A stretch of 28,777 nt of DNA from a virus: positions 1 to 28,777 of IMG/VR virus record IMGVR_UViG_3300037961_003476; one strand, given 5' to 3'. This document shows positions 3,001 to 27,092 of this stretch, in pieces. The position numbers and the translations under genes were made by a program. The notes below the pieces were generated by a model. The model was not told where the DNA came from, made no database searches, and worked only from the letters and a program-made list of their open reading frames with translations. Position 1 is the stretch's first letter; every line of letters begins with the position of its first letter.

Positions 3001-6000
3001 TTCACCTTCAAGGAAGCGAGATGTCTCAACAACTGCTTCTGCACGACCACCGAAGACTTCGGTGAGCAATACTTGACGACCACTACCCTGAGTCAGGAAT
3101 GTGATGTAATCACCTGCTTGTGCTGCTTGTAAAGTCAGTGCAAAGCGAATTTGGTCGGATTCCAGTGAATTTTGTTGACCAGCGATTGCATAGTAGATCT
3201 GACCTTCAACCAAAGAAGTCAAACCTGCGCTAGAGGGTTTAGGCAATATACCTTCAGTGCTACCGACATTTTCAGCACGGAATTGGATTTCTGCACCAGT
3301 TGTAATGCCGTGAGGGAAGTTAAACTGCAGATAGTTGAGGTCAAGGTTAACAACGTAGTTAAACTCGGACTTCAGCGTAACTGTGGGCTCAGATGAGTAT
3401 CCAGCACCAGGATTCTTAATAATGATCTCACTGAGTCTATTATTCTTGATAACGGCAACTGCATCAGCACCTTCACCGCCACCACCTTCAATAACAACTG
3501 CAGGAGTCGATGTATAACCAGCACCTGGATCAATAATCTTAATTTCAGAAAGAATCGAAGTATTGAAGAGTTGGAGGTTAACAGGGAAGGTAATTTCTGG
3601 TTTCAGAGTATAATCGTGAGAATAACCGAAACCAAACTCATTATTCTTAAGTCTCTTGATCTTACCGATATTTTTACCAGTCAAGAAGACGGATGCACCA
3701 CTACCTTCGCTAGGAATTACAACTGTGACAGATCCACCAGATCCAGACAGTGTGGGACCAAGAATGCCAGGAATAGCGTCAATATCAACGCTTGCAACGG
3801 TATAACCTTTGCCTGGATCGGCAACTTGGACAAGACTGATTGCTCCAGACCCAGTTTCCTCGTCTGGAGTAACTGTGACGGTAACTTTACCACCTTCGCC
3901 GTCTCCAGCAACAGGAACGTCATAATAGACGCCAGGTGCGTATTCTGTGCCACCGTCATTGATAACAACCTTCTCAATTTGACGGAAGGATGCAATATCG
4001 GAGATAATTGGTAGTTTTTTGTAGAATCCACCAGGAGAAACCAGTTTGATCGAGTTGATAGGTCCAACTGCTCTTGTAGAAGTAGTAGAGTAGAAAGAAT
4101 ACTCCTGACCTTGATCATTTGCCCCGATCTCAGCGTTACTACGCTCAGGCTCTCTATTAAGTGGGAATTTGAATTCAGTATCGCTTACAATTTCGCTGAC
4201 TCTGAATCTACCTTGATATGGTGTTGTGATAACGTCAATATACGAGTTATCACCGACTGGAGAATTAGCTCCTGTCCTAGAAGGATCGAAGTAGTAAGAA
4301 ATGTTTGTGACATCGCCCAGTACCAAGAATTTAACGAATGGATTTCCTGCACCAGCACCTGCGATACCAGGAGTGCCATCTCTTACAGTATTATTGAAGG
4401 AATACTCCAACTTATACTGGTTATCCTGAGAGAAGGACAGATAGTATCCGAAGTTGGAAGGATCGCCAACATCGAAGTTGTACTGGTGATTTCTAGTAAA
4501 CAGAAGGGTAGGATGCTTAGCATAGACGTTTACATTCTGGATACCATTATTGACAAAGGCAGGATCAGAAACTGCTGCTGCTCTAATGCCAAGTGTAAAC
4601 TCTCTAGATCCGATAACATCATCAACGAAGAAAGATCCGTTGAATTGATTACCTTGGAATCCTTCGGTAAAGAGAATATCGTTTGCTTTATAGAAGTGAG
4701 GAGTATTAGATGTGAAATACACCTTATCAGTCCTAACACTACCAGTCATGATGATGTCTTTCTCAAGACGTGCTGTTACACGAATCTTCTTGACAGAAGC
4801 AAAACCAGAGATCTCAACAGACTTCTCATCTTCTGCCAAAGTGATATTATTAGTGTTGACACTAACAACGTCGTTAGGAATGAAGTTAGATCCAGGATGG
4901 ACTTCTAAGATCTCAATGCTGTAGTTATTACCTTGGTCATAACCCATCAAACGGGTCTTAAGACTAATTGCTTCAGAAGTTGCAATATGACTCCAAGTAA
5001 CCTGACCGTCAGAAACATCACCAGTGGTGTGAGTAGGAGGGACTGCTGTAGTAACGCCACCGCCACCAGCAGCAACTTCATAAACGTTGAGACGATACCA
5101 AACACGCTGACCAACAGCATACAAACGATGTGGCAACCACTCAGGCATATCCAGACCAGTATACTGAGGTCTAGGATAAGGATGCTGAGTCAGGTCAACA
5201 GTAAACTTACCTGCATCATCGATAAATGCCCAGTTGATAACACCGTCAGAAACAACACCAGTGTTATGCTGAGGTGCAATAGTGCCAGATGTGCCAGCAC
5301 CTTGTGCCTCATAGATTCTCTTTTGGTTATAGACACGATCTCCCTGTGCATATGCAGTGCCTGCCTGCCAAGGTGATTCTTCTTCAATAGTATCGAAGTA
5401 AGTGCCTTCAATCTGGTTTACATCAGCAGGGGATGCTGTGGTGCGGAATCTATCAGTAGTGTTGAATGTGCCGTAGGTTTTACCGACTCTATACTTGGTG
5501 CCAACGCCAGGATTTTGCAGAGTGCCTGCAGGAATCTCTGTAATAGTTGCAAATGCAGTTGTAGTGCCAAGGTTATTAAACTGCTGCAGAATAGAATACT
5601 TAGTCAGTTTGACATCTTGATTAAATGTCAGCTCAAGGACGTTATCAACCTTCTGATACAGAGCATCTCTAATATAGAATTTGGGAATAACATCTGCAGA
5701 AATAACCAGTCTCTTACCACGAGGTGAAGGGATGGTAGAAGTCTTAGAAGCATACTGATCATATACTGAAGATAGTGTATATGTACCAGGAATCATCGTG
5801 GAGAAAGTCTGGGACATGTCCAGAATTTGCAAACCACCAGGACCTTCTAACCACTCACTGATTGCACCAGTGCTGATAGAATTCCAAGTCATACCGATTG
5901 TATGATCGGTAAAGGCAATAGTGCTATGCTTATTAAGACCAGTCAATGTATAAGATGCACGCTGAGTGTGTGCTCTATCAAACTTAATCAGTGCAACATC

Positions 6001-9000
6001 AGAGTTGGATGTGGTGATTGCAATCTCAGCGGTTGGCACAGTATATGAAGTGCCAGGATAAGGTGCAATATCATCAAGCACAAAGTCATCGATGTTACCA
6101 CGGAAAGAATTGCTTGTAGTTGGAGGACTGGAAGGACCACAGATAACAACGTCATCGAGAGCAACATCAGTAGTGCTCTGATAACTGACTTGCTGGTTAC
6201 CACCGATGAAGACCTCATAACGATACAGACCCAGAGACTCTTGACGTTTCTGGACAGTAACATGGACCCATGCACCAGCAGCAAAGGCATCCCAGTTAGT
6301 TGCAGCAACAGAAGAGGCAACCTGAGTGCCATTCAAGTAAAGGATAACCTTCTGGTAGTCAGGATCAGTGCTATCACCTTGAATAGTTGCAGTAATCGAA
6401 TTAGTATTAGTAGCATCGTTGACATGCAACAATGTAGGCTCATGAGCGGTGCCCCATACAGTTGTATTCATGGACATCCACATTCTACCACTCCACTCAA
6501 CTGGTTGTAGACCCAAGTCAGTAATAGTGATAGGTGCAACGTCGTTAAACTTCAGAGATCCAGTGCCAAACTTATAAACAGCGGCATCAAATGTCAGATC
6601 AGACTGACTATAGTAGTTGTAAGTGCCAAGCTCTTGCTTAGTAGTATCTTCAACAGGATTTGCAGCATTACCCATTCTCCAAGAGACGAGCTGATCGGAG
6701 AGTTGACGGTTAGCAGCAATAATGGTGTCACCAGAGTTATCCAAAGCATGAGTATATGCTTGGAAACCAATACTTGCAGTGTCATCAATCTTAGTCTGAT
6801 ATAACAGAGTGCCGTCATACTTCATGTAAGAAATAACTGCATATCTCTGATTCTGAGATTCAATAACATCAGAAACTAGAGTATAGTTACCCCACTGGTC
6901 ATAAGAAATACCAGCATGATGCATTTCAAGGAAATCGCCAGAAGTTGTGACTGTCTTACTCCATTCCCATTCAGTTTGTGCTTTGGTAAGCAAGAATTTA
7001 CTGACGTTGATCTTATCGTACTTGGATGCAGCAGAATTAAAGATATCCCAGACAACGATGACTGCACCGTAGTCATCCATAGTCATTCTAGGGTTGACTA
7101 CACGTCCACCCACTGTAGGCACTTGCTTGATCCAATCCATCTCAAGGTTTGCACCATCATAGAAGAATTCACCGAAGATCAAGTCATCATTTTGGTCGTT
7201 AACACCAATGAAGAAGAATCTATCATCGGAGATCATCATGATTTGATGCATCTTCTCAGAATCATCCTGAGATGCAACCTTACGCTTCTCAACCAGATCA
7301 CCCTCAATACCACACTGAATGATCCACATATCATCAGGATCAACAGAGTTAGTATCGGTATAACCACAAAGGTAGATACGTTGCTCTTGGTCAAGGGCAA
7401 TAGAAGTTACATAATCTCTTCTGGTGCTACCAGAGATACCAGCGATTGCTCTCTGCCACTTCAGAATACCGTCAGGATCGTTTGCGTTGTTGAATCCAGA
7501 CTCATAAAGTCCCAACCAGATATCGGGATTAAATGTATCATTGTCAGGGTTTTTAGTTTGGCCTGTAACATATATGAGGTCGTTTTCTGGAGCATCATTG
7601 ACCACCATCTTGAGGAATTCAGCTCTCTTCTGGTTGGCATTGATAGGAATGAGAGTCCTTTCCCAAATCTTCTGACCAAGGTCATCAAACTTAGCAAGGA
7701 AACCAGATTCATCACCATCTGTCTCAGTGATCTTACCGCAGATATATGTAAAACGTTGAGAGGTAACTTTGATATCATTAACTTCAATGATACCAGTTGC
7801 TTCCATATATTCGGTCAACCAATAGCGAGTCTTCTTAAACTGCTGAGGATGAGAAACACGAATTTGAGGAGGATTCTCAGGATCATAACCATTACCAGAG
7901 TTGATAATGTTGACTCTGTTAATTTGACCAGTATTCTCCAGTACAATCTCTAACTGACCATCCTGACCAGAGGATGTAATCAATTCAAAGGTGGGAGGAA
8001 TATCTTCGTTGTAACCAACACCAACTTGAGCTACATTGATGCGCTCAATACCAGAAACAACCTTAACTTTGAAGTTTTTATTGGTGTTGTCAATAACAGG
8101 AGAAGAATTGACAATCAATTCGTCTTGTTGGCGAAGATCATGGTTAGCGTTAGTAACGATCACACCATATGGGCGATCACCAATGATCTCCTTAGAATAG
8201 GAGTTAATCTTCTGACCCTTGACAGATTCGATAAGTGCAGAGGCACCGAAACCACCTGTGCCTTCATCGTCAAAGAAGACAGTATCATTAACCTGATAAG
8301 AAACACCAGGATTCTCAATAACGAAACCATCAATCTGAGCATCCTCAAACTGAGTGGTTGTCTCAACTTCAATGTCCACTCTGGATTCTTCAGAAACCTG
8401 AGGGAAGTAATCATAGATTTGTAGAGTTGCCTCTTCAGACATCTCAAGAATCTCTTGCTGCTCATTAGCATCAATGATTCCGTCGTTGTTACTGTCCTGA
8501 ATCTCAAAGATAATAGGATAACCTTCGATTTCAGTTGTTAGGACATCTGCTTCTTGGTTGGGTTGACGATCAACATCGATGTCAACATTGACATAAGGAT
8601 CTCTATAACGGACAACATCTTGAGGAATATTTTCCTGAGTTGCTCCCTGAGCAAAGTTCCATTGATCAGGCAGTGAGTTAAACTGAGGTCCAAGGATATA
8701 TGGGAATTCAGCAACACCAGCTTCCGATGCATCAATAGTAATAAAGTATGCATAGGTGCCATCAGGATACTGAGGTGTCTTACAGAAACGACCGTTGTAG
8801 TTATCCAGATCACCAGATTGGAAGTCATATGTATAGTCAGCAACAAACGATCCAGCAGGATATGTGGACAACTCAGGTCCATCAATACGAGCAGGGTTAG
8901 GGTTAGTAGCTTGATCAAATACAACGTTATCCTTTAACTTATAGGATGTGCGAAGTCTTCTAATACCACTGTTTTGGTCGGTTGGATCAATGTAACCATA

Positions 9001-12000
9001 AGGACCGTAGATTGGGTTACCATCATAAGCCCAACCCAGAATAGGAGAGTGCTCAAAGTTAGATGCAACTTCTTGGAATTGCTGTGTAACAGGATTAAGG
9101 AAGACGTTATCGCCAACCACATAACGAAGCTCTTTAGGATCACTAAGGTGAGCATACTCACCACCAAACTGGTTATTCAGACCAGTAAAGACATATCCTC
9201 TTGCTCCGTCATACTTATTGACAAGATCATATTGAAGGTTTCTATTCCACTCAAACACCTGTGGTGTAAATTCAGCAAAATCACCAACAGACTCAAGTCT
9301 AACAGTAGTAAGACCTTGTGTATATCCAATACCTCTGTTTGTGATCTCAACACTAAGGACTCTACCTTTATCCTCACCAACAGTGCCGATAATTGCCCTT
9401 GCAATAGCACCGAAACCATCACCATTGATTACAATCTCAGGAGCAGTGGTATATCCACTACCAGAGTTAATAATAGCGATAGAAACGATACGACCGTTAA
9501 TAACAATAGGTTGTGCCAGAGCACCTTCACCAGAGTTAACTCTAACTGCAGGCAGTGAAGTATAACCAGTACCAGCAGAAGTAATATTAACACTTTGAAT
9601 AGGACCACGGACACTTGCAGTTGCCTCAGCACCTGTGCCACCGCCACCAGTAATAGAAACGCTAGGTTGTGAAGTATATCCTGTGCCTGGTTGCTCAACC
9701 AGAATTCTGGTGACGCGACCACCAGTTACGACAGCTTGTGCGGTTGCTCCAATACCACCACCGCCAACGATGGAGACCAAAGGAGATTCTGTATATCCAC
9801 TACCTTGATTGGTAACAACAAAGGATGTCAAACTACCATTAACAACAACTTCACCAGCAGCACCTGTGCCGCCACCACCAGTAATTTCAAGAGCAGGTTT
9901 AGATCCTGCATCATAATCCTGACCACTGTTATCAACAGTGATGCCAGTCAGAGGACCAAATCTAACAAACTCACCAGACTTGTATGCCCAGATAGACACA
10001 CCATTCACCCAAGCACCAATCGAGGTATTTGCTTGAATATCTTGACGCTCAGAGATAGTTTGGACAAGTCTTGGGAATCTAAGCAGTTTACGCTGGTTGC
10101 CAGGAATCAGTGCCGACCCAGTGAAAGGACCAACCTTATAATTGGGTAGACCAGAGGAAGCAACATAAACATAGTCATCATTAAAGAAGGAGTTTTGGAT
10201 ATTTGTTGTAAACTCACTAACAACGTTGTTGATAGAATTAACATTGGACTTACCTCTGTTAAGGTCCACAGAAAGAAGGATATTACCTTCAGGAATGATC
10301 TCTGTGGGAGTATTGATTTGATATGTAAATTGGAATTCGTCAATACGAGAGGTAACTGTAAAGGTGCCGTTAAACACAACAGGGTTAGCACCATAGATCG
10401 TCACCTGATCAGAAACCAGAAGACCGTGGGGGTTACTACAGACAACAGTTGCAGTCTGGTTATTAACACCACCAGGAGTAACGCTAGTAACCTGAATTAG
10501 TTTCTTAACGTTATACAACCATGAAGATAGTCTCTCATCTATTGCAGAAGATCCGAGTTTAGCAACCTTCAGCTTGTCACCTTGCAGATAGTAAGATCCA
10601 GTATCATTCAGGATCGTTGTGCCTGCTTCTGCAATACCAAGGACTCTGAGTTTACACTCGGCGGAAGTGCCTTGATTGACATATACAAAGATATCAGAGA
10701 AGACAATGGTGCCAGGATCCCAATCCTCTACAACACCATTTTTAGATCTGGTGCATTCAATAAACTGGTTAAGTGATTTCTCTTTATATTGGACAACCTC
10801 TTGATCGTTGATACGAATGGTGCCGTTTCTTTCTGGCCATCCAATCGTGGAGTCAACGGTAATAATTTGACCCTCTGTAGACAAAGGCTCAACTAGAGTC
10901 GTCTTATAAGGAATGACAAAACTACCACTCAAGGTCTCTTCAGAGATTGCCAATTCGTAGATAGTGTCCTTACCTTCAATAATAGTAATGACGTTTTCAA
11001 TCAGTGCCTGTGCATTTTTGACACTAAGGTCAACAGGATCGGCATACTGAGTAAGTTGTGAGTCAATCAGATTGGCAGGATCACCCTCAATCAACTCAGC
11101 ACGCAACACAGTGTCAACAACCCATGTAGCAGCAGATGGTGAGATGATCTCATCTCTAGGATAATAGATATCCACCTGCTCACCAAACATGATCTTAAAC
11201 AGATACTGTGTGGAAAGCTCAGTGCCCTTACTGATGTAGAAGTCACTGATATTTTTAATTACTTGGACAGGATTGATTGAAGAATAATCAATCTCAATAG
11301 TAGGAAGATATTGTCTTCTAAACTTATCAAAGACTTCTCTGATAAACAGAGAGTCTAAGTTAATAACTGTAGATGCAGCAGGGTGAGTAGACTGACGCAG
11401 TGCTGCTTCACCTGCATAGATCTCGTTATGTAGGTTATCGTATCCAACAGCACCAGATACACCACGACTACATCCAAGGAATGCAGAAGGTGAATAACCT
11501 TTACCTGCCTCAATGATTTCATAACCAGTCAGCTCATTGAAACCAACAGCAACGGATGCTCTTGCTGCTTTAGGCTCAGCAATGTAGATCTTAGGAGGCT
11601 CTGTTTCAGAATATCCAGTACCGAAGTTGGTAATGTTAATATCAGTGATCTCACCGTTAAAGATAGTTGCTGCAGCAGTTGCACCTGTGCCACCAATAGG
11701 CACACCATAGGGATCCTTTCTATCGTCAACGATGTAAACGGAAGGAGCGTCGGTATAACCTCTACCACCTGTCAACATCTCAATGTTAGTAACAGCACCA
11801 GACGCAACAGTAACGTCAAGCACCTGAGCACCGATAGGTTGAATAATCCTTGCTCTAGGTGGAGTTACATATCCTCTACCTCTATTTGTAATAACGATCT
11901 CGTAAACTTGACCGTCTTGGTTGATTCTGGAGATTGCCTGAGCATTGATACCACCTTCAGGTGCTTCATCCAGATAGACAATAGGAGGATTGCTGTAGTT

Positions 12001-13341
12001 GAGACCTTGCTCTTCGACAACAATACTATCGATGTTTACACGACCTTCACTATCAATAGTAGGTTGTCCAATTTTACAACCACCAGGATTAACAAAGGAA
12101 ATAGCAGGGATAAAGTCATATCCACTACCAGAATTCATAATAGTCAGACTATCGACCTGACCAGATTCATCATCTACAGTCAGAGCGACTTTTGCCAGTG
12201 TGCCACCTGTAGGAGCGCCTACAATGGCGATTGGAGGGTTGTATGACGTATAACCTTGTCCACCATCAATTAGAGTGATATCTTTGATACCACTAACCAA
12301 AGTTTTGGCAGTTGCACCAACACCATTGTTATGCTGGACGACAACCTTGGGCTCAAAGTCTAATCTATAACCACTACCACCAGTTTTAGGAATCAAACGG
12401 TCAACTTGACCATTTGCATCAACAGACACAACTGCAGATGCTCCAGATCCAAATTGAGGTGCAATATACTCAACAGAGCGTACATGAATAGTATCAGCAG
12501 CACCCAGAGGGAATCTGAAGATAATTTGATTCTCAAAAACGGTATAATCGGTATATGCCTCTAATTGGCGATTATTCTTCTTAATAATCAGACCGATTGC
12601 CGAAGTTGGCGTATATGGTTGAGTATTTACTCTGAGGGGATATTCTTTCTTACCTTGATACTCTTGGTATGGGATAGCATCAGTTGTGACGATCGTTTGA
12701 TCGGCATACCCAACCAGATATGTAATTTCAGTAAACTGAGAGTCGTCAGCACCAGATCTAGCACGAGGAGCAACTTGAAAGCGAATTTGATCGCCTTCAA
12801 CAAAATAATCAACTCCAGGAATGAGCATATCGTTATATGTGATAACGATAAGGTGCTCTGCCGAAGGAGGACGGACTGGGGTGCCTAGGAAGTTGAGAGG
12901 GAAAGTATTTCTAGTCCCATCAAACAAACTGAAGGGATTTTCTAGTTGTTGTTTCTTTTTATCGAATTGAGCAGGAGAAACACCTGGTGTAATGATGGCA
13001 TCAGGACCACGAGTCACAGACTCGTAGTAAATGACTTCATTATCGATCATAATCGATCCATTGGTCTCCTTGAAACCATCAATCGATTCAATTTTAATAT
13101 CTTTATCGTTCAGCCCAATATCATTCAGCAGAAGAGTATCTCTAGACAGTTCGTCAGACGTATAACTGTCAAGATCCAAATAAGTCAGAAGATTATTCAG
13201 AATGTCGTAAGGACGACCTGTTTTTTCTTGAGACTTGTAGTATTGGAAGAGAAAGTCAACAAATTGTCGATCTTCCTCCCTGATAAACTCAGGGAGTTGA
13301 TTTTCAACTCTATCCGAAATATTGATATTTTTTGTAGGCAT
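1..13341 (-). CDS. Giant multidomain virion structural protein, C-terminus beyond window
   Basis: The frame is open from an ATG at 13341 to base 1 (4447 codons, no stop), so the 3' end lies outside. It begins 5 nt after gp6. Domains by residue: 1-310, an N-terminal region with a fibre-like pattern (LIPGVDYFVEGDQIRF); 313-620, eight GxGY repeats; about 1040-1570, a YHYH-type domain interrupted by six GxGY repeats (about 1130-1345) and ending in NGRFCKTPQYPDGTY; 1616-1627, an EF-hand loop DSNNDGIIDANE; about 1850-2250, a propeller-like region (FLAKFDDLGQKIWERTL); about 2250-2415, LamG-like (AGAWVHVTV, YEVFIGG); 2650-2795, two SDGxVxW modules; 3127-3320, five GxGY repeats; about 4060-4270, two related helical units (GGN, then YFD); from about 4330, repeats YTPSTG/YNPATG. 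Its place in the wedge operon suggests a baseplate- or fibre-associated adhesin (inference). Long plus-strand open frames here are antisense artefacts of rare TTA, CTA and TCA codons. Confidence 0.93.
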   Translation of the reverse strand, partial: MPTKNINISDRVENQLPEFIREEDRQFVDFLFQYYKSQEKTGRPYDILNNLLTYLDLDSYTSDELSRDTLLLNDIGLNDKDIKIESIDGFKETNGSIMIDNEVIYYESVTRGPDAIITPGVSPAQFDKKKQQLENPFSLFDGTRNTFPLNFLGTPVRPPSAEHLIVITYNDMLIPGVDYFVEGDQIRFQVAPRARSGADDSQFTEITYLVGYADQTIVTTDAIPYQEYQGKKEYPLRVNTQPYTPTSAIGLIIKKNNRQLEAYTDYTVFENQIIFRFPLGAADTIHVRSVEYIAPQFGSGASAVVSVDANGQVDRLIPKTGGSGYRLDFEPKVVVQHNNGVGATAKTLVSGIKDITLIDGGQGYTSYNPPIAIVGAPTGGTLAKVALTVDDESGQVDSLTIMNSGSGYDFIPAISFVNPGGCKIGQPTIDSEGRVNIDSIVVEEQGLNYSNPPIVYLDEAPEGGINAQAISRINQDGQVYEIVITNRGRGYVTPPRARIIQPIGAQVLDVTVASGAVTNIEMLTGGRGYTDAPSVYIVDDRKDPYGVPIGGTGATAAATIFNGEITDINITNFGTGYSETEPPKIYIAEPKAARASVAVGFNELTGYEIIEAGKGYSPSAFLGCSRGVSGAVGYDNLHNEIYAGEAALRQSTHPAASTVINLDSLFIREVFDKFRRQYLPTIEIDYSSINPVQVIKNISDFYISKGTELSTQYLFKIMFGEQVDIYYPRDEIISPSAATWVVDTVLRAELIEGDPANLIDSQLTQYADPVDLSVKNAQALIENVITIIEGKDTIYELAISEETLSGSFVIPYKTTLVEPLSTEGQIITVDSTIGWPERNGTIRINDQEVVQYKEKSLNQFIECTRSKNGVVEDWDPGTIVFSDIFVYVNQGTSAECKLRVLGIAEAGTTILNDTGSYYLQGDKLKVAKLGSSAIDERLSSWLYNVKKLIQVTSVTPGGVNNQTATVVCSNPHGLLVSDQVTIYGANPVVFNGTFTVTSRIDEFQFTYQINTPTEIIPEGNILLSVDLNRGKSNVNSINNVVSEFTTNIQNSFFNDDYVYVASSGLPNYKVGPFTGSALIPGNQRKLLRFPRLVQTISERQDIQANTSIGAWVNGVSIWAYKSGEFVRFGPLTGITVDNSGQDYDAGSKPALEITGGGGTGAAGEVVVNGSLTSFVVTNQGSGYTESPLVSIVGGGGIGATAQAVVTGGRVTRILVEQPGTGYTSQPSVSITGGGGTGAEATASVRGPIQSVNITSAGTGYTSLPAVRVNSGEGALAQPIVINGRIVSIAIINSGSGYTTAPEIVINGDGFGAIARAIIGTVGEDKGRVLSVEITNRGIGYTQGLTTVRLESVGDFAEFTPQVFEWNRNLQYDLVNKYDGARGYVFTGLNNQFGGEYAHLSDPKELRYVVGDNVFLNPVTQQFQEVASNFEHSPILGWAYDGNPIYGPYGYIDPTDQNSGIRRLRTSYKLKDNVVFDQATNPNPARIDGPELSTYPAGSFVADYTYDFQSGDLDNYNGRFCKTPQYPDGTYAYFITIDASEAGVAEFPYILGPQFNSLPDQWNFAQGATQENIPQDVVRYRDPYVNVDIDVDRQPNQEADVLTTEIEGYPIIFEIQDSNNDGIIDANEQQEILEMSEEATLQIYDYFPQVSEESRVDIEVETTTQFEDAQIDGFVIENPGVSYQVNDTVFFDDEGTGGFGASALIESVKGQKINSYSKEIIGDRPYGVIVTNANHDLRQQDELIVNSSPVIDNTNKNFKVKVVSGIERINVAQVGVGYNEDIPPTFELITSSGQDGQLEIVLENTGQINRVNIINSGNGYDPENPPQIRVSHPQQFKKTRYWLTEYMEATGIIEVNDIKVTSQRFTYICGKITETDGDESGFLAKFDDLGQKIWERTLIPINANQKRAEFLKMVVNDAPENDLIYVTGQTKNPDNDTFNPDIWLGLYESGFNNANDPDGILKWQRAIAGISGSTRRDYVTSIALDQEQRIYLCGYTDTNSVDPDDMWIIQCGIEGDLVEKRKVASQDDSEKMHQIMMISDDRFFFIGVNDQNDDLIFGEFFYDGANLEMDWIKQVPTVGGRVVNPRMTMDDYGAVIVVWDIFNSAASKYDKINVSKFLLTKAQTEWEWSKTVTTSGDFLEMHHAGISYDQWGNYTLVSDVIESQNQRYAVISYMKYDGTLLYQTKIDDTASIGFQAYTHALDNSGDTIIAANRQLSDQLVSWRMGNAANPVEDTTKQELGTYNYYSQSDLTFDAAVYKFGTGSLKFNDVAPITITDLGLQPVEWSGRMWMSMNTTVWGTAHEPTLLHVNDATNTNSITATIQGDSTDPDYQKVILYLNGTQVASSVAATNWDAFAAGAWVHVTVQKRQESLGLYRYEVFIGGNQQVSYQSTTDVALDDVVICGPSSPPTTSNSFRGNIDDFVLDDIAPYPGTSYTVPTAEIAITTSNSDVALIKFDRAHTQRASYTLTGLNKHSTIAFTDHTIGMTWNSISTGAISEWLEGPGGLQILDMSQTFSTMIPGTYTLSSVYDQYASKTSTIPSPRGKRLVISADVIPKFYIRDALYQKVDNVLELTFNQDVKLTKYSILQQFNNLGTTTAFATITEIPAGTLQNPGVGTKYRVGKTYGTFNTTDRFRTTASPADVNQIEGTYFDTIEEESPWQAGTAYAQGDRVYNQKRIYEAQGAGTSGTIAPQHNTGVVSDGVINWAFIDDAGKFTVDLTQHPYPRPQYTGLDMPEWLPHRLYAVGQRVWYRLNVYEVAAGGGGVTTAVPPTHTTGDVSDGQVTWSHIATSEAISLKTRLMGYDQGNNYSIEILEVHPGSNFIPNDVVSVNTNNITLAEDEKSVEISGFASVKKIRVTARLEKDIIMTGSVRTDKVYFTSNTPHFYKANDILFTEGFQGNQFNGSFFVDDVIGSREFTLGIRAAAVSDPAFVNNGIQNVNVYAKHPTLLFTRNHQYNFDVGDPSNFGYYLSFSQDNQYKLEYSFNNTVRDGTPGIAGAGAGNPFVKFLVLGDVTNISYYFDPSRTGANSPVGDNSYIDVITTPYQGRFRVSEIVSDTEFKFPLNREPERSNAEIGANDQGQEYSFYSTTSTRAVGPINSIKLVSPGGFYKKLPIISDIASFRQIEKVVINDGGTEYAPGVYYDVPVAGDGEGGKVTVTVTPDEETGSGAISLVQVADPGKGYTVASVDIDAIPGILGPTLSGSGGSVTVVIPSEGSGASVFLTGKNIGKIKRLKNNEFGFGYSHDYTLKPEITFPVNLQLFNTSILSEIKIIDPGAGYTSTPAVVIEGGGGEGADAVAVIKNNRLSEIIIKNPGAGYSSEPTVTLKSEFNYVVNLDLNYLQFNFPHGITTGAEIQFRAENVGSTEGILPKPSSAGLTSLVEGQIYYAIAGQQNSLESDQIRFALTLQAAQAGDYITFLTQGSGRQVLLTEVFGGRAEAVVETSRFLEGEEVYQGSAVELASATGKVSTNTGWQIGPKILKIVDYDGDWQVGEKVTGSISKASGVIDNLSIARGVLNIGSLTRTPGKFIDNVGKPSEIVQKIQDSFFYQNFSYVIKSEIPITEWKTQILENNHPAGFNMFGQLQLVGGKDVSGRKVGTEFTKEVNINNYSNVNQITSFGAAQPIYTDYNNTEVLFRKKRLTSSEEILTSIVKKLDDIAPQFNGIDKSFPITVEGEQVIVQQNQLMITINGVIQAPGVSYSIVGGNIVFAEPPKPASRVNYRSLSITPTPIYRIQLYSGQAGTPNFGIFPTLGQQVQGVDSDVVATVIDSGTSHIDVINLVGGTFNLNEEITRGTLFSALVQSVTQLNSNTIFEFGESITNLEGDTAIIEETNIDENGNVTDDIVVSKTSGTAQFETGIFDLRLNEFVYSASSKIAGQITFISPYIDPATSDPVDELIINPGSTFYGLLFERLVSITNPNVILDNISQSSITPTELYDSANRINDDFLDFEEVRNTEVKYTQLTGGNFQEGDIVINNRANYGNPVSVFHGVAANRFKDASAMILGNKQQIIDFAEAEIAVRHPRFYFPGDVITNSWSRYSDAYRLIQRNKEYIANKAYDEMMTQYTSLTVPDPSKCIRDLELYIDAISIDIFRGGNVYTRKLCQKYFDVNGNFVYVNNESAETRFGFEKAKDLMKLAITNNLTSNFTAPSGQPNGGVTFIPWSEVDHGGYDGNGITADPSPNDPYGTNGANQSNNGTDNCTDVQAAITTLYEVVDETLLNGTLADLPDESLGTYSPGQLKCRRDIGLMLDALAEDVSQGGNYNIIEFTKKYFDAAGAPIANGLIGEYAESLTAIDKAMHLSFQAINNLLYHQVNTRTSVTGFMLKDPTTYQGPYSGGEADLEEFDVSSAVYTPSTGQLVMTIGTHTLTTSDTIKVRPHSLRFTCDADGDRTFHDYPRAGDPAFNTAVAITATTGTTITVNIGASPLVQFTPTAATYNPATGDMELTIGTHS
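3380..3960 (-). repeat. GxGY protein repeat array C (5 looser units)
   Basis: Units include PGAGYTSTPAVVI, PGAGYSSEPTVTL and PGKGYTVASV; two are degenerate (APGVYYDVP, GFGYSHDY). Isolated single motifs of the same kind also occur near 7880 and 8010. Confidence 0.75.
4960..5380 (-). repeat. Two tandem YEx-SDGxVxW modules (carbohydrate-binding-like)
   Basis: Two units of about 70 residues: (1) AYAQGDRVYNQKRIYEAQGAG, then APQHNTGVVSDGVINW; (2) YAVGQRVWYRLNVYEVAAGG, then PPTHTTGDVSDGQVTW. The pattern (aromatic strand, Gly loop, PTHTTG, SDGxVxW) is common in phage tail fibres and resembles carbohydrate-binding modules. The functional reading is by family resemblance only. Each run is shown in pieces. 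Confidence 0.7.
9300..9960 (-). repeat. GxGY protein repeat array B (6 units) inside the YHYH domain
   Basis: Six units of about 37-40 residues, the most regular of the three arrays: GSGYTESP, GTGYTSQP, GTGYTSLP, GSGYTTAP, with intervening GGGGTGAxA segments. The array interrupts a YHYH-type domain whose N-terminal part lies at about 9960-10200 and C-terminal part at 8640-9280. Confidence 0.87.
11480..12400 (-). repeat. GxGY protein repeat array A (8 units) in giant gene
   Basis: Eight successive units of about 35-45 residues share the core [G/Q]-x-G-Y-x-x-x-P-x-[VI]-x-[VI], for example GSGYDFIP, GRGYVTPP, GRGYTDAP and GTGYSETEPP, followed by a Gly/Ala-rich segment. The repetition is at protein level; DNA copies have diverged. 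Repeats of this kind are usually beta-rich spacer modules in surface proteins. Confidence 0.85.
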
Positions 13342-13346
13342 CTATC

Positions 13347-15509
13347 TCAGAAACAGGAGGAATCTACTGGATATGTGAAGGTATCCGAAGGATAATCAAT
13401 GATATTTATTCCGCTTGGATCACCGAAGTTATAACCATTGAAGTTGTTGGGATCGAAGTTGGGGATTGAGATGTCGTTGGTTTTCCAATCGATTGGAAAC
13501 GCTTCAACATCAAACAATGTGGGATCAACGCCAGGTGGAATGTTAATAGATCCACCATAAGGCAATACTTGAATGGGAAGACGGGTAGTATCGTCAGGAG
13601 TGCCTTGGATCGCAATAGGACCAACACAAACTTGTCCGCTACCGTAGTCAACGCTACCAACTGAGTTATTTAACGTTACTTCAACCTCATCTCTTTTGGT
13701 AACAAGAATAAGATTGCCTTTACCGTCATCTCTAATGTTTACAGGCACCAAAACTTGATTTTCACCAGTAATGGAGTTAGAAGACGAAACAGCAGTGGTA
13801 GCATTTGTGCCACTACCTGCCATAGTCAAATTAACAAGATCTTCGCTGTATCCTGTTGCATAGAAGGTGCCAGATTTGACTACAGAGAAGGAAGGAGCAC
13901 AAGTGCCGCTATCTCCCTCGTCTACACACTTACCATCCTTACAAATTTGACCTTCTGGACAATCTGAGTCAGTGCTACATGTATTTCCACCTTCTGGGGT
14001 GCCAGAATAGTCGCCAGGATTGTAAAGTGGGTTTCCAAAGTCAAGACATTGAGTAAATACGCTACCAAACTCAAATTGGTCAAGATTTTGACCAATAGTC
14101 ATCTGAGTAACCGTGCCAGAGATCGCAGGATCACTATTATCGACCATCGTGTTGTATTTCGATGTATCAATACGACCACCGAAGCGATTATTCTGACCAT
14201 TCTTGTTAAATTGGTCAATATTACGCAAAACGTCACTTCCGAGTTGAGCACCACTCTTATTAGTGTTGTTTCCGTCGTAGTAAACGTAAGATTTGGGGAT
14301 AACGTAGAAAATAGTAGGATCAATGATCACAGGATCGATTGATGCAACCGTATAACGCTTCAAATCATTTTTAATCTTTGCTTTTGTCGTCTCATTCAGT
14401 TTGTTTCCTGTTTTTGGACGAATAGCAACGTAAACTTTACCGTAAATGGGTGGAGATAGTTTTTCACCACCGTATGCGGTCACAGATGCTGCCTGAGGAT
14501 AGATCTCTGAGACGATATGCTCATAATCTGTTTCCGTTACCGCTCTGTTTTGGGTAGAGAAGGATCTTGGCGCTCTAAACTTGACTGATAGCGCACTTTC
14601 GCGTGCTTCTCCGTCTGCAGCAGACTCTCTAGTAACAACTGCGATGTTTGCAGGAGCGATTGCGCGACCATCACTGTCTTTGATGGTGCCAATGAAGGCA
14701 AAATCCTTACAACCGTTTGCTTCTTCACCAAAAGTGGTCACATATGACAATCTAATGTATTCACCATCGATCAATTTACGTCCAAGGACGCCATCACCAA
14801 AGACGAGGCGGTATCTAAGGTCATCAGTCTCCTCAAGGAAGTAAACACGAGAGGTGCTGTTGAGTGTAGTAACGTTTGCAGCAAGATTATATGTGTCAAT
14901 CTCCTGTGACTGCGCGTTAGGAGAGATATCGACGTAAACCAACTGAGTGTCTACATCTTCAGTGGGGATAACGTAGTCTTGCTTCTTCGTATAGTCAACT
15001 GTGTAGTTATACTTGAGCAAGTTACCCTGATAAACGAGCACAGGGTCAAACGTCGCGATACCAGTTGCGGGATCTACGGTAGTTTGGAGGTCACGAGTCA
15101 CACAGAAAGTGTATGTGTCATTAAAGTTGCGGGCAACAAACACATCTCCCGCTCTTAGAGTGCAGAATTCAGGATATGTAGTGCCATTCAGCGACACTTG
15201 TGTCTGGACGCGGATAGTTACGCACGCTCTGGGCGCTTTAATTGACCTAGGAGTGTAATTTAACTGCTTTGCAATGCGGACAACGTTATCTCTAACCGTA
15301 GCAGTCTCAAGAAATGCCTCATTCAGCGCCATGTTTGCGTTGAATGCGGTATAATATGTGTTATAAGCGAGGATATCAATCAGATACGACGCAGCACTAC
15401 CCTCAAAGTCGTAGTCAGTAAACTCTTTACGAGTACGAAGGTAGGACTTAATAGACTCCTTAATCTCAAAGAAGTCTAGAGATGTTAATTGTGATGGGAT
15501 AGCTGCCAT
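13347..15509 (-). CDS. 6: Baseplate wedge subunit gp6
   Basis: 720 residues, slightly longer than T4 gp6 (660). The N-terminus (SLDFFEIKESIKSYLRTR, then FEGSAASYLIDILAYNTYY and LNEAFLETATVRDNVVRIAK) is the conserved gp6 / gpJ-like wedge signature. In T4, gp6 dimers form the inner baseplate ring and change shape on contraction. The start lies 1 nt after the gp25 stop and the stop is 5 nt before the giant gene, so the three genes form a tight operon. An unusual Cys-rich insert, CSTDSDCPEGQICKDGKC, occurs at about residues 507-530; it resembles Cys-rich motifs of bacterial and eukaryotic secreted proteins and is not part of the wedge fold. The late promoter at 16096-16102 is upstream of the operon. 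Confidence 0.95.
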   Translation of the reverse strand: MAAIPSQLTSLDFFEIKESIKSYLRTRKEFTDYDFEGSAASYLIDILAYNTYYTAFNANMALNEAFLETATVRDNVVRIAKQLNYTPRSIKAPRACVTIRVQTQVSLNGTTYPEFCTLRAGDVFVARNFNDTYTFCVTRDLQTTVDPATGIATFDPVLVYQGNLLKYNYTVDYTKKQDYVIPTEDVDTQLVYVDISPNAQSQEIDTYNLAANVTTLNSTSRVYFLEETDDLRYRLVFGDGVLGRKLIDGEYIRLSYVTTFGEEANGCKDFAFIGTIKDSDGRAIAPANIAVVTRESAADGEARESALSVKFRAPRSFSTQNRAVTETDYEHIVSEIYPQAASVTAYGGEKLSPPIYGKVYVAIRPKTGNKLNETTKAKIKNDLKRYTVASIDPVIIDPTIFYVIPKSYVYYDGNNTNKSGAQLGSDVLRNIDQFNKNGQNNRFGGRIDTSKYNTMVDNSDPAISGTVTQMTIGQNLDQFEFGSVFTQCLDFGNPLYNPGDYSGTPEGGNTCSTDSDCPEGQICKDGKCVDEGDSGTCAPSFSVVKSGTFYATGYSEDLVNLTMAGSGTNATTAVSSSNSITGENQVLVPVNIRDDGKGNLILVTKRDEVEVTLNNSVGSVDYGSGQVCVGPIAIQGTPDDTTRLPIQVLPYGGSINIPPGVDPTLFDVEAFPIDWKTNDISIPNFDPNNFNGYNFGDPSGINIIDYPSDTFTYPVDSSCF

Positions 15510-15510
15510 T

Positions 15511-15924
15511 TCAGGTCTTCTCTAAGAGGAATGTTACTTCTTGGGTAGTATTCTCACCCGTAATCTTATATTCGAGCTCAACTTGAATTTCATTCAGATC
15601 GCTGTTGTCACGAATGCGGACATCTTGGACAGTGATTCGTGGCTCAAGTCTTGCGAGACAATCTTTAATCTCAGTTTTGATCGCATCTTTAGAGAATGGA
15701 TCCCATGGCTCAAAAAGAAGACCTTTCACCCTACTCCCGATGTTGGGTTGAAATGGTCTTTCACCTAATATAGTCAATAACAAATTTCTTACAGATTGAT
15801 TGATTGCTCTCTCATTCTTCACAGCACCAAAATCGTCAGTAGAGGGATTGGCATTAAAGGAAATTGCTAAATCCTTAAATCCTCTACTGACGTATTGGTC
15901 TGATCTAAATCTGTAAGCAGGCAT
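15511..15924 (-). CDS. 25: Baseplate wedge subunit gp25 (lysozyme-like fold)
   Basis: 137 residues, close to T4 gp25 (132). It carries the family hallmarks AINQSVRNLLLTILGERPF and a PNIGSRVKGLLFEPWD segment, followed by an EPRITVQDVRI strand region, as in the GpW/gp25 family. In T4-like phages gp25 joins the gp6 wedge core to the sheath and primes sheath polymerisation. A Shine-Dalgarno-like GAGGG lies just before the ATG. The upstream small gene stops at 15925-15927, directly abutting this start, which implies translational coupling. gp6 follows after 1 nt. Confidence 0.95.
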   Translation of the reverse strand: MPAYRFRSDQYVSRGFKDLAISFNANPSTDDFGAVKNERAINQSVRNLLLTILGERPFQPNIGSRVKGLLFEPWDPFSKDAIKTEIKDCLARLEPRITVQDVRIRDNSDLNEIQVELEYKITGENTTQEVTFLLEKT

Positions 15925-22963: not shown

Positions 22964-23064
22964 GAAAATTCAGGGTCTGAGAGGTTTTCTTCTGTTAGGT
23001 CATCATACTCGGGAAAGTCTTCCTGGAGCATGTCATCGATCCAGTCATTTTCGATGTCATTCAT
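22960..23064 (-). CDS. Tiny acidic protein (34 aa)
   Basis: 34 residues, very acidic (14 Asp/Glu): MNDIENDWIDDMLQEDFPEY to SDPEFS. It is supported mainly by context: ATGA overlaps with both the upstream 62-aa gene and the downstream 55-aa gene keep the frame in a coupled series. It follows a basic protein (62 aa), so an acidic/basic pair is possible. No domain is recognised. Confidence 0.6.
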   Translation of the reverse strand: MNDIENDWIDDMLQEDFPEYDDLTEENLSDPEFS

Positions 23065-23249
23065 GAGTTGTAATCCTCTGGGCGTTGTTGGTCAAAATCG
23101 ACATTCTTTCGTTGATATTTCCCTGTGGATTCATCTGTGGAAAACTCATCGGGCACCTGTCGATTAGTCTTGGAAAACTGTCGCTTTTCTCGGATTGATT
23201 TCGGTCGGCGTGAGTTGTGGAGATCGTTACGTTTGTAGGTCCGTCCCAT
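23061..23249 (-). CDS. Basic hydrophilic protein (62 aa), first gene of coupled run
   Basis: 62 residues, hydrophilic, Arg/Lys- and Asp/Glu-rich without hydrophobic segments: MGRTYKRNDLHNSRRPKSIR to QQRPEDYNS; probably disordered. It is the first cistron after the 239-nt gap with a TTGACA/TATATT promoter (23287-23315) and a late core (23423-23429). A ribosome-site-like AAGGA lies about 17 nt before the ATG, which is rather far. The coding DNA contains one TTTTCCACA and one GAATCCACA on the minus strand (23124-23144), adding to the adjacent DnaA-box cluster. Confidence 0.75.
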   Translation of the reverse strand: MGRTYKRNDLHNSRRPKSIREKRQFSKTNRQVPDEFSTDESTGKYQRKNVDFDQQRPEDYNS

Positions 23250-23286
23250 CAGTCAGTTGAAATTGTCCTTGGTTAACTACTCAGTC

Positions 23287-23329
23287 AATATAAGCAATTT
23301 TGGGCAATGTGTCAATAACTCTGTGACGG
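23287..23329 (-). promoter_or_regulatory. Early promoter P7: TTGACA, 17 nt, TATATT, with upstream CCGTCACA box
   Basis: On the minus strand: box CCGTCACA (23322-23329), -35 TTGACA (23310-23315), 17-nt spacer, -10 TATATT (23287-23292). The box-to-hexamer distance (29 nt) equals that of the other early promoters in this window, and it is the only one of the seven with a consensus -35. It drives the 62-aa gene and the coupled small genes after it. Confidence 0.7.
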
Positions 23330-23422
23330 TTTGTGAGGTGATCCGAGCATAGTTGACAAAAAAATCTCGCTGTGCTACGCTCTAAGGTAACAATAACTCC
23401 GTAGATATAATTCTCGGAAGTA

Positions 23423-23429
23423 TATTTAT
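23423..23429 (-). promoter_or_regulatory. T4-type late promoter core (AATAAATA)
   Basis: The minus strand reads TAAATAAATA, containing ATAAATA. It lies about 175 nt upstream of the first gene of the structural side, so this side may have both early (P7) and late start points. The A/T-rich context also makes a chance match possible. Confidence 0.45.
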
Positions 23430-23435
23430 TTACCC

Positions 23436-23488
23436 ATTTTAATTATCCACAGAATACGCGGAAACTGTGGAAATCGTGTGGAAAACTA
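23436..23488. other. Cluster of DnaA-box-like sites, candidate replication origin
   Basis: Contains TTATCCACA at 23443-23451 (a perfect DnaA box), and on the other strand ATTTCCACA (23466-23474) and TTTTCCACA (23477-23485), the last matching the box form reported for Synechococcus. Two boxes are 11 bp apart (one helical turn). TCCACAG (23446-23452) and CTGTGGA (23465-23471) can pair with a 12-nt loop. The adjacent 23402-23445 is A+T-rich. The whole non-coding gap is 23250-23488. Confidence 0.45.
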
Positions 23489-23713
23489 TCATTGTAGTCC
23501 CCTGTTTTCGTGTATGGTGTCTCTCACTCTTTCACGGTCTAGACTATCACCTCCACCCCATGTAATTACATCACCATCACATGCATCAAGGTAATTAAGT
23601 GTAGCAAGTGCAATTTCTTCTCTAGTTAGGTTAGGTATAGGATAGAGGCAATCTTTGTGAGATGGTAGATAGAATGACTCGCAATAATCAAGGAATTCAG
23701 AGAAGTTTGTCAT
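23489..23713 (-). CDS. Small hypothetical protein (74 aa)
   Basis: 74 residues: MTNFSEFLDYCESFYLPSHK, a Pro/Tyr middle, EEIALATLNYLDACDG, and a Gly-rich WGGGDSLDRERVRD tail. Acidic. No domain is recognised. It is the sole gene of an early unit with promoter P1 (TATAAT at 23741-23746) and a 27-nt A/C-rich leader lacking a Shine-Dalgarno sequence. Its stop at 23489 faces the DnaA-box cluster, so it is the last early gene before the structural side. Confidence 0.85.
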   Translation of the reverse strand: MTNFSEFLDYCESFYLPSHKDCLYPIPNLTREEIALATLNYLDACDGDVITWGGGDSLDRERVRDTIHENRGLQ

Positions 23714-23740: not shown

Positions 23741-23784
23741 ATTATAATGGATAATTGGTGTGGCACAGTGTTTAATTGTGCCAC
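23741..23784 (-). promoter_or_regulatory. Early promoter P1 with GTGGCACA box in an 8-bp dyad
   Basis: TATAAT at 23741-23746 and GTGGCACA (minus) at 23777-23784, 30 nt apart. A second arm at 23760-23767 makes an inverted repeat (GTGGCACA, 9-nt loop, TGTGCCAC). The same dyad with the same loop length but a different loop occurs at P4. No TTGACA-like -35. It drives the 74-aa gene. Confidence 0.65.
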
Positions 23785-25829: not shown

Positions 25830-27092
25830 TTAGACTAATGCCGTGGCGGGGACACCTTTGACAAAAATCTCATCAGTCACACGTTGTAAACGTTTGATGA
25901 TGTTTGCACCGTGATTGCGATGCACTGGAATTGTCACAAATCCTGTTGGTTTGTTGTAAAATGCCCATTGCTGTGGTTGTAACTCACCTGACTGAAGTCT
26001 CTGAGCATCATCACGATCGAGACGGATAACTCTCCCGATTGTTTGTGCCATCTCAACAACGTTGAGATTTCTGAGTAGAATGCAATGAGTTAATCCTGGA
26101 ACATTGATCCCTTCACTCAAAATAGAATAGTGAAACAATACAAACTTGCGTCCCTTCTCTTTGCCCCACTCGGTGAGAGTATTGAAGAATACTTCGCGGG
26201 ATACTTTAGTGCGGTTGACATATGCACCAAATTTAGAGGTGACATGCATCACATCGTAACCACGCTCTGATAACTCATGAATCAAATCTGTATGACCTAG
26301 GATATTACCAAGGATGCGAGAAGAGGGGACAGCAACTAACACTTTCGCCGCGTGTGTCTCATCTAGATTGTCGATGATATCCTGCACGGTGTTACTGTGG
26401 ACCATGTGAGGATTCTTTCTATCAACTGTGTGATCTGTTTCAAAAGGGACAATAGTGGGCGGAAGAATGTGACCGCCTTCGATCAATTCAGGTGCGGGGA
26501 CATTCTCAAGAATAGGACCAAAGATAGCACGGTTATTCATGCCACGGTCATGCTTATTTGAAATGCGTGGTGTAGCAGTGAAGAAATACTTTTTAGTCGC
26601 AATGTCACTCATAGCAGCAACACTCACAAAAAAGTGCTTAGTGCATCCGTTATGTGCTTCATCAAAATAGATTGCATCTACATCGATACCACTATCAACA
26701 ACGCGGCGCAATGAGTGATAAGTTGTGAAGATAATGCAAGACTCATTGGCAGCACGCGCAGTGTCATTGAATAAAGCAAGTTTGTGTGACTTAGTTGTGC
26801 TGAAATGGTGTGTTTCACCAGAGTGGCAATGCGCGACATGTGTCCATGTTGCGGGGATAATGCTCATAAACTCATCGCTGAGTTGATTAGCAAGAAGAAT
26901 GCGCGGCGCAACAACAACAATAGTGCGCGGGGCATCGTTAAGCAATGCGCGGCAATGCTCGATCATGATAATAGTCTTGCCACCACCAGTGGGGACAATG
27001 ATTTGACCATGATCAGCGCCATTCATTGCAGCAAGTGAGCGGGATTGATGAGGGCGGAGAGTGATGGTCAAAATGCGTTTCTGTCGATGCAT
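25830..27092 (-). CDS. Superfamily II DEAH-box helicase
   Basis: 420 residues. Motifs: Q-like LRPHQ (12-16), motif I PTGGGKT (34-40), Ia VAPRILLANQ (61-70), II DEAH (144-147), III TATP (172-175), V ILSEGINVPGL (324-334), VI QTIGRVIRL (350-358). This is the Res/UvsW-like DEAD/DEAH helicase type; no nuclease or other domain is attached. It may remodel replication or recombination forks or act in host takeover (inference). The ATG at 27092 lies 2 nt after a TATAAT, so the mRNA would be leaderless, or a downstream non-ATG codon is used; motif I rules out M23. Parts of the coding DNA carry GC-rich runs (GCGCGGCG) unlike its neighbours. Confidence 0.92.
   Translation of the reverse strand: MHRQKRILTITLRPHQSRSLAAMNGADHGQIIVPTGGGKTIIMIEHCRALLNDAPRTIVVVAPRILLANQLSDEFMSIIPATWTHVAHCHSGETHHFSTTKSHKLALFNDTARAANESCIIFTTYHSLRRVVDSGIDVDAIYFDEAHNGCTKHFFVSVAAMSDIATKKYFFTATPRISNKHDRGMNNRAIFGPILENVPAPELIEGGHILPPTIVPFETDHTVDRKNPHMVHSNTVQDIIDNLDETHAAKVLVAVPSSRILGNILGHTDLIHELSERGYDVMHVTSKFGAYVNRTKVSREVFFNTLTEWGKEKGRKFVLFHYSILSEGINVPGLTHCILLRNLNVVEMAQTIGRVIRLDRDDAQRLQSGELQPQQWAFYNKPTGFVTIPVHRNHGANIIKRLQRVTDEIFVKGVPATALV

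Follow-up and report, generated by a model that had tools for sequence, protein, structure and literature searches.

Here we describe a DnaA-box cluster in a gap of a T4-like cyanophage genome (positions 23250-23488 of the window, the whole 28.8-kb IMG/VR fragment analysed), which, judged from sequence comparison, is almost certainly a conserved, selected binding site of the DnaA-box type. We read the gap, with a probability of about 0.55, as an origin or origin-like initiation site of replication that would depend on, or be assisted by, the DnaA protein of the host. An earlier note on this DNA had proposed a DnaA-box origin here; that interpretation is supported, and neither of the refutation tests that were run went against it. 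The isolate nearest to the window by DNA is Cyanophage P-TIM40, to which it is 72% identical across part of this region.

Read on the minus strand, which is the gene sense, the locus runs from the stop of the 74-aa ORF through TTTTCCACA, ATTTCCACA and GTTTCCGCG to the opposed TTATCCACA, then through the 22% G+C stretch with AATAAATA, the CTTAG...TGTCAA module and the early promoter to the 62-aa ORF (Table 1). The five boxes reported in the earlier note were all recovered at the same coordinates, its 11-bp box spacing (23466 to 23477) is correct, its A+T-rich stretch in the gap (23401-23445, 22% G+C) is real, and its early and late promoters have matches there at 23315-23287 and 23430-23423, both on the minus strand. 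The convergent pair 23443/23466, the spacer box GTTTCCGCG, which is probably a weak third box, and the plus-strand TTGACA-N17-TACGCT, which is the reverse-strand reading of the conserved CTTAG...TGTCAA module, were not in its list. The outlying TTTTCCACA box lies at an offset of 341-344 bp that is also found in four relatives (L005, L006, G002 and G003). Upstream in gene sense, a terminator-like perfect hairpin (GTGGCACA...TGTGCCAC, with a T-rich tail; 23760-23784, plus strand) separates the 74-aa ORF from a 148-aa ORF. At the other end of the window, a 4447-aa open frame (1-13341, minus strand) directly past gp6 runs off the contig and probably encodes a giant virion structural protein.

Table 1. 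Features of the box cluster and its surroundings (window coordinates)
Feature	Position	Strand	Remarks
DnaA box TTATCCACA, perfect	23443-23451	+	Right arm (gene sense) of convergent pair; kept at the locus in relatives
DnaA box ATTTCCACA	23466-23474	-	Left arm (gene sense) of convergent pair
DnaA box TTTTCCACA	23477-23485	-	Direct orientation to ATTTCCACA, 11 bp apart
Outlying DnaA box TTTTCCACA	23136-23144	-	Within the 62-aa ORF
Weak box GAATCCACA, two mismatches	23124-23132	-	
Degenerate box GTTTCCGCG	23457-23465	-	In the spacer of the pair; TTTCCGC core kept in relatives
Convergent box pair	23443-23474	none	Conserved core element, 32 bp (9 + 14 + 9 bp); spacers of 14-15 bp favoured among the IMG/VR matches listed
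A+T-rich stretch	23401-23445	none	22% G+C; candidate unwinding element
Early promoter match TTGACA-N17-TATATT	23287-23315	-	Would serve downstream small genes; TTGAC here kept in many relatives
Late-promoter-like AATAAATA	23423-23430	-	AATAAA aligned in most relatives
Promoter-like TTGACA-N17-TACGCT	23353-23381	+	Weak -10; points through the A+T-rich stretch to the boxes
62-aa ORF	23061-23249	-	phrog_1464, unknown function; downstream of the early promoter
74-aa ORF	23489-23713	-	phrog_7799, unknown function; upstream of the element
gp25-like baseplate wedge gene	15511-15924	-	phrog_261, phrog_43; with gp6 marks the syntenic position
gp6-like baseplate wedge gene	13347-15509	-	

The proposed count of boxes across the window gave a divided answer. 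At up to one mismatch, TTWTCCACA occurs 19 times against 18.8 expected, and this way of counting was dropped as uninformative, its result being equal to chance. Exact boxes are clustered beyond what shuffling produces: three occur in the 28.8-kb window against 0.7 expected, and neither three within 350 bp nor two within 45 bp were reproduced in any of 1000 dinucleotide shuffles.

The locus is conserved across cyanophage isolates. Among 14 complete Kyanoviridae genomes scanned in full, 12 have their strongest TTWTCCACA cluster at this locus, before the gp25/gp6 baseplate genes, and exact boxes reach 0.61 per kb within 2 kb of it versus 0.019 per kb elsewhere, while the reversed word has no matches near the locus in these genomes. 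In S-SSM5 the pair constitutes the sole two exact boxes in 176 kb. The box locus is at 49.3 kb in S-SSM5, 52.57 kb in Syn9 and 19.2 kb in S-PM2. The earlier note had held that its proposal would fail if boxes were as frequent elsewhere or were not conserved in close relatives; away from the locus, exact boxes are rarer by a factor of about 30, and the same locus carries them in 15 Kyanoviridae genera (at least two exact boxes in each, from the complete genomes plus box coordinates from three more records) and in many divergent environmental relatives. BLAST searches retrieved 204 phage records with the S-SSM5-type element (190 of them named cyanophages, including some RefSeq/GenBank duplicates) and 60 with the S-PM2-type region, all except one named cyanophages. 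In every annotated record examined at the element, it lies inside a run of small genes and precedes the baseplate wedge genes. Closer to the window, a contig with 98% identity (L005) keeps everything, and one with approximately 75% identity (L006) keeps the convergent pair and the spacer core with different flanks; the pattern TCCACAGTTTCCGC-N2..8-CTGTGGA has matches in 12 IMG/VR contigs.

Most isolates have just 2-4 strong boxes, and some have none clustered. In P-TIM40 and P-SSM4 the locus and the CTTAG...TGTCAA module are present with no boxes there, and clustered exact boxes are missing from P-SSM2; not every relative therefore requires the cluster. In one group of phages an extra exact TTTTCCACA stands upstream of the pair at a constant distance of 227-231 bp (Syn33 46489, ACG-2014a 43565, S-RIM8 41476, S-RIM2 47900, S-CAM22 42213 and S-RIM12 47476), resembling the fixed downstream box of the window's group.

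Environmental relatives extend the element to larger arrays. A scan of IMG/VR with TTTTCCACA-N4..16-TGTGGAAAA found at least 80 loci, those analysed being among the matches listed. Within the matches listed, cyanophage-like ORFs occur at 72 of the 80 loci analysed, 66 of those 72 are divergent T4-like (median identity below 70%), and at 56 of the 66 divergent loci an ORF near the pair has its orthologue among the genes that lie within 3 kb of the reference element. Distinct spacers among the matches listed are mostly of 14-16 bp (52) or 4-5 bp (14), with only six between. Many of the contigs listed carry more extended arrays, the largest with eight boxes, and some of these arrays are divided into two halves by a central gap of 47 or 69-70 bp. 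The search pattern placed no condition on tandem spacings; among the matches listed these fall at multiples of about 10.5-11 bp (11-12, 21-22 and 43-44 bp; n=88, R=0.65), related lineages being pooled, so that the p-values overstate independence. Such ordered, helically phased boxes belong mainly to the IMG/VR relatives, the window itself having an 11-bp tandem and a 14-bp convergent spacing. Arrays of seven or eight TTTTCCACA boxes occur in L529 (3941), L540 (12), L556 (1063), L298 (12909), L326 (4848) and L591 (2392); in many arrays of this size the half-arrays face each other across a recurring gap sequence, and the 47-bp and 69-70-bp gaps differ by about two helical turns. As a marker of the host of the array contigs, psbA/psbD was set aside, with genes of this type in only 3 of 30 fragments.

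The reversed word was rejected as a collection-wide control. It matched a different conserved palindrome, so the IMG/VR totals lack a clean control and the spacer-length distribution within the pattern was used instead. This palindrome (ACACCTTTT-N-AAAAGGTGT) recurs often in viral contigs, in most cases around a 10-bp spacer, and is unrelated to DnaA boxes (examples in L407-L486, e.g. L407 2472-2499).

The 9-mer stays while orientation, box number and spacer vary between lineages. Compared with the window's group, S-SSM5, Syn33 and most other phages carry the asymmetric element in reverse with respect to the genes; S-PM2 combines one forward box with two reverse ones, and P-TIM68 has a pair with a 5-bp spacer. 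Evenly spaced 12-nt iterons are absent from the window and most relatives, Syn1 alone having three tandem boxes in 12-bp steps. A 9-mer that is kept while its arrangement turns over is expected of protein binding sites, not of an RNA or coding feature. An RNA hairpin, terminator or structured RNA was rejected (fold z-score -1.3, no U tract, no Rfam match), and the occurrence of the element in both orientations relative to the genes also rules out an RNA element.

The word itself is that of the host. The earlier note had taken TTTTCCACA to be a cyanobacterial DnaA box, correctly so: it is termed the cyanobacterial DnaA box in the literature, its binding having been studied in vitro in Cyanothece (PMC4674748), and the host dnaN loci agree. 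In 35 picocyanobacterial genomes, located through psbA and dnaN, it is the commonest box-like 9-mer in the dnaN regions (the oriC side), and several low-GC genomes have three to five boxes about 130-300 bp from dnaN. In our reading, host DnaA would bind the phage element. The cyanobacterial oriC by dnaN (Synechococcus elongatus, Anabaena, Cyanothece, picocyanobacteria) resembles the phage locus in having the same 9-mer in an intergenic cluster of 2-5 boxes. In contrast to oriC, the phage cluster lies in a lytic genome, away from dnaN and with no GC-skew minimum seen, and its pair is convergent with a 14-15 bp spacer; the pair at several low-GC host loci is instead divergent, its boxes lying about 30 bp from each other.

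Beside the boxes, the A+T-rich stretch is exceptional for the window: only 0.07% of the contig's 45-bp windows have 22% G+C or less. In 8 of 12 relatives the stretch adjoining the boxes ranks among the 3.3% of genome windows poorest in G+C, and in the other 4 its A+T richness is unremarkable. The late-promoter-like site can be compared with the published cyanophage late-promoter motif, NATAAATA (PMC2984593). The plus-strand site at 23353-23381 may have promoter activity, and, with promoters present, the locus could have a regulatory role.

The strongest rival, which we consider rather unlikely, holds that host DnaA at boxes beside early and late promoters times the genes before the baseplate cluster, with no start of replication. 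Bacterial DnaA is known to regulate transcription, and both promoter-like sites keep conserved positions beside the pair. The first pair box also stands at a fixed distance from the CTTAG...TGTCAA module, 88-91 bp (90-91 bp for eight genomes and 88 bp for the window), or 109-110 bp in two genomes. Against transcription control, up to eight phased boxes with central gaps of 47 or 69-70 bp exceed a usual operator, and the element can be inverted and shifted by about 20 bp.

A second alternative, less probable again, is that a phage-coded protein with a DnaA-box-like site, acting as initiator or regulator, binds the element. A candidate of this kind would be the AbrB/MazE/SpoVT-like protein encoded about 1 kb downstream of the element in Syn33, and the TTTCCGC core of the spacer is conserved beyond the DnaA consensus. 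However, the boxes match the host DnaA box letter for letter (PMC4674748 and the host loci), and no initiator-like gene was recognised adjoining the locus.

It is also improbable, and more so than either of these, that transcripts prime an ordinary T4-type (R-loop) origin here, with boxes that are accessory or serve as a decoy titrating host DnaA. T4 has several transcript-primed origins with no common motif, and DnaA is not mentioned in the account of them (PMC3016281). A promoter with an A+T-rich element downstream of it is required at T4 oriF and oriG, while oriE has an early promoter beside short repeats (PMC3016281). The cyanophage locus may share the oriF/oriG layout, with its promoter-like site at 23353-23381 pointing into the A+T-rich stretch 23401-23445, and the TTGACA/CTTAG module persists in the boxless P-TIM40 and P-SSM4. 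The two differ in that the T4 origins have no shared motif, whereas the cyanophage locus has boxes; as a decoy, these boxes would need neither fixed location, helical phasing nor promoter spacing. An origin of the oriF/oriG type has a middle-mode promoter with a MotA box. Cyanophages are described as lacking MotA (PMC2984593).

The genomic neighbourhood is shared with T4. There, oriE is located between genes 5 and 6, and some 80 bp separate oriF from gene 25. Cyanophages have genes 25 and 6 side by side with the element ahead of both, which places it in the neighbourhood of T4 oriE/oriF. Like oriE, the locus is near gene 6 and combines an early promoter with short repeats, the steps in Syn1 being exactly 12 bp. 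T4 oriE is described as having 12-nt iterons, but the repeats seen beside it are 24-nt units in gene 5. Homology with these repeats was rejected, since the unit there lies within gene 5 and no DnaA-box cluster was found at T4 oriE. Positions 25830-27092 of the window (minus strand) encode a superfamily-2 helicase that weakly matches T4 UvsW (E 1e-4). In T4, uvsW is also near oriF, and UvsW removes origin R-loops.

Chance similarity of ordinary words in an A+T-rich gap, for which the one-mismatch count equal to expectation would speak, has a negligible probability and is already refuted by conservation and clustering, being contradicted by the shuffles, the fixed locus, the local density, the spacer preference and the helical phasing.

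The preferred reading, a host-DnaA-dependent or DnaA-assisted origin, has parallels among plasmid and prophage replicons. P1 oriR, pSC101 and F are host-DnaA replicons with few boxes by an A+T-rich region, as at the phage locus, but they also have iterons and their own Rep, and no Rep-type gene was found at the phage locus. GC skew, which the earlier note had suggested as a check, lent the origin no support. The complete genomes have no skew flip or minimum at the locus, the cumulative skew being dominated by transcription direction, and in most of them the detrended skew has a maximum, not a minimum, about 3-25 kb upstream of the element; the test is a weak one in genomes transcribed almost wholly one way, and recombination-dependent replication imposes no strict need for a skew signal. 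A change of skew slope near 22.2 kb in the window was discarded as an origin marker, being absent from complete relatives, where skew tracks transcription and gene class.

Since the boxes are the word bound by host DnaA, the viruses may borrow the host initiator to begin genome copying. Early in infection, a host DnaA oligomer would form on the phased boxes and open the adjacent A+T-rich DNA, possibly aided by a transcript that starts at the plus-strand promoter-like site and crosses this DNA in the direction of the boxes. At the opened site the helicase-primase and polymerase of the phage would then load and begin the first rounds, after which recombination-dependent replication would take over, as in T4. 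A broader proposal, which we hold tentatively and at somewhat less than even odds, is that most T4-like cyanophages would share one conserved origin opened by host DnaA. This would be a lineage-wide replacement of the multi-origin, transcript-primed scheme of T4, with array size and spacing evolving in helix steps.

T4-like cyanophages are among the most abundant ocean viruses. We know of no T4-type phage that starts replication with a host initiator; oriC-like box clusters are known, but, to our knowledge, not as an element present at one locus throughout a lineage of T4-like lytic phages. A single theta origin has been predicted for Syn9 (reviewed in PMC2984593), and beyond this prediction no located or tested replication origin of T4-like cyanophages was found in the literature searched, nor any report on cyanophage DnaA boxes or Syn9 transcription starts, the Syn9 genome paper lying outside that literature. 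If the preferred reading is true, phage replication would be tied to host DnaA, and perhaps to the host's light-driven or daily replication control, and T4-type replisomes could be started in a way wholly unlike that of T4. The fixed, single-copy host-DnaA-box element provides an exact site for testing, and the boxless gaps in two Prochlorococcus phages, P-TIM40 (L004 4248-4460) and P-SSM4 (50850-51200), provide natural controls for function.
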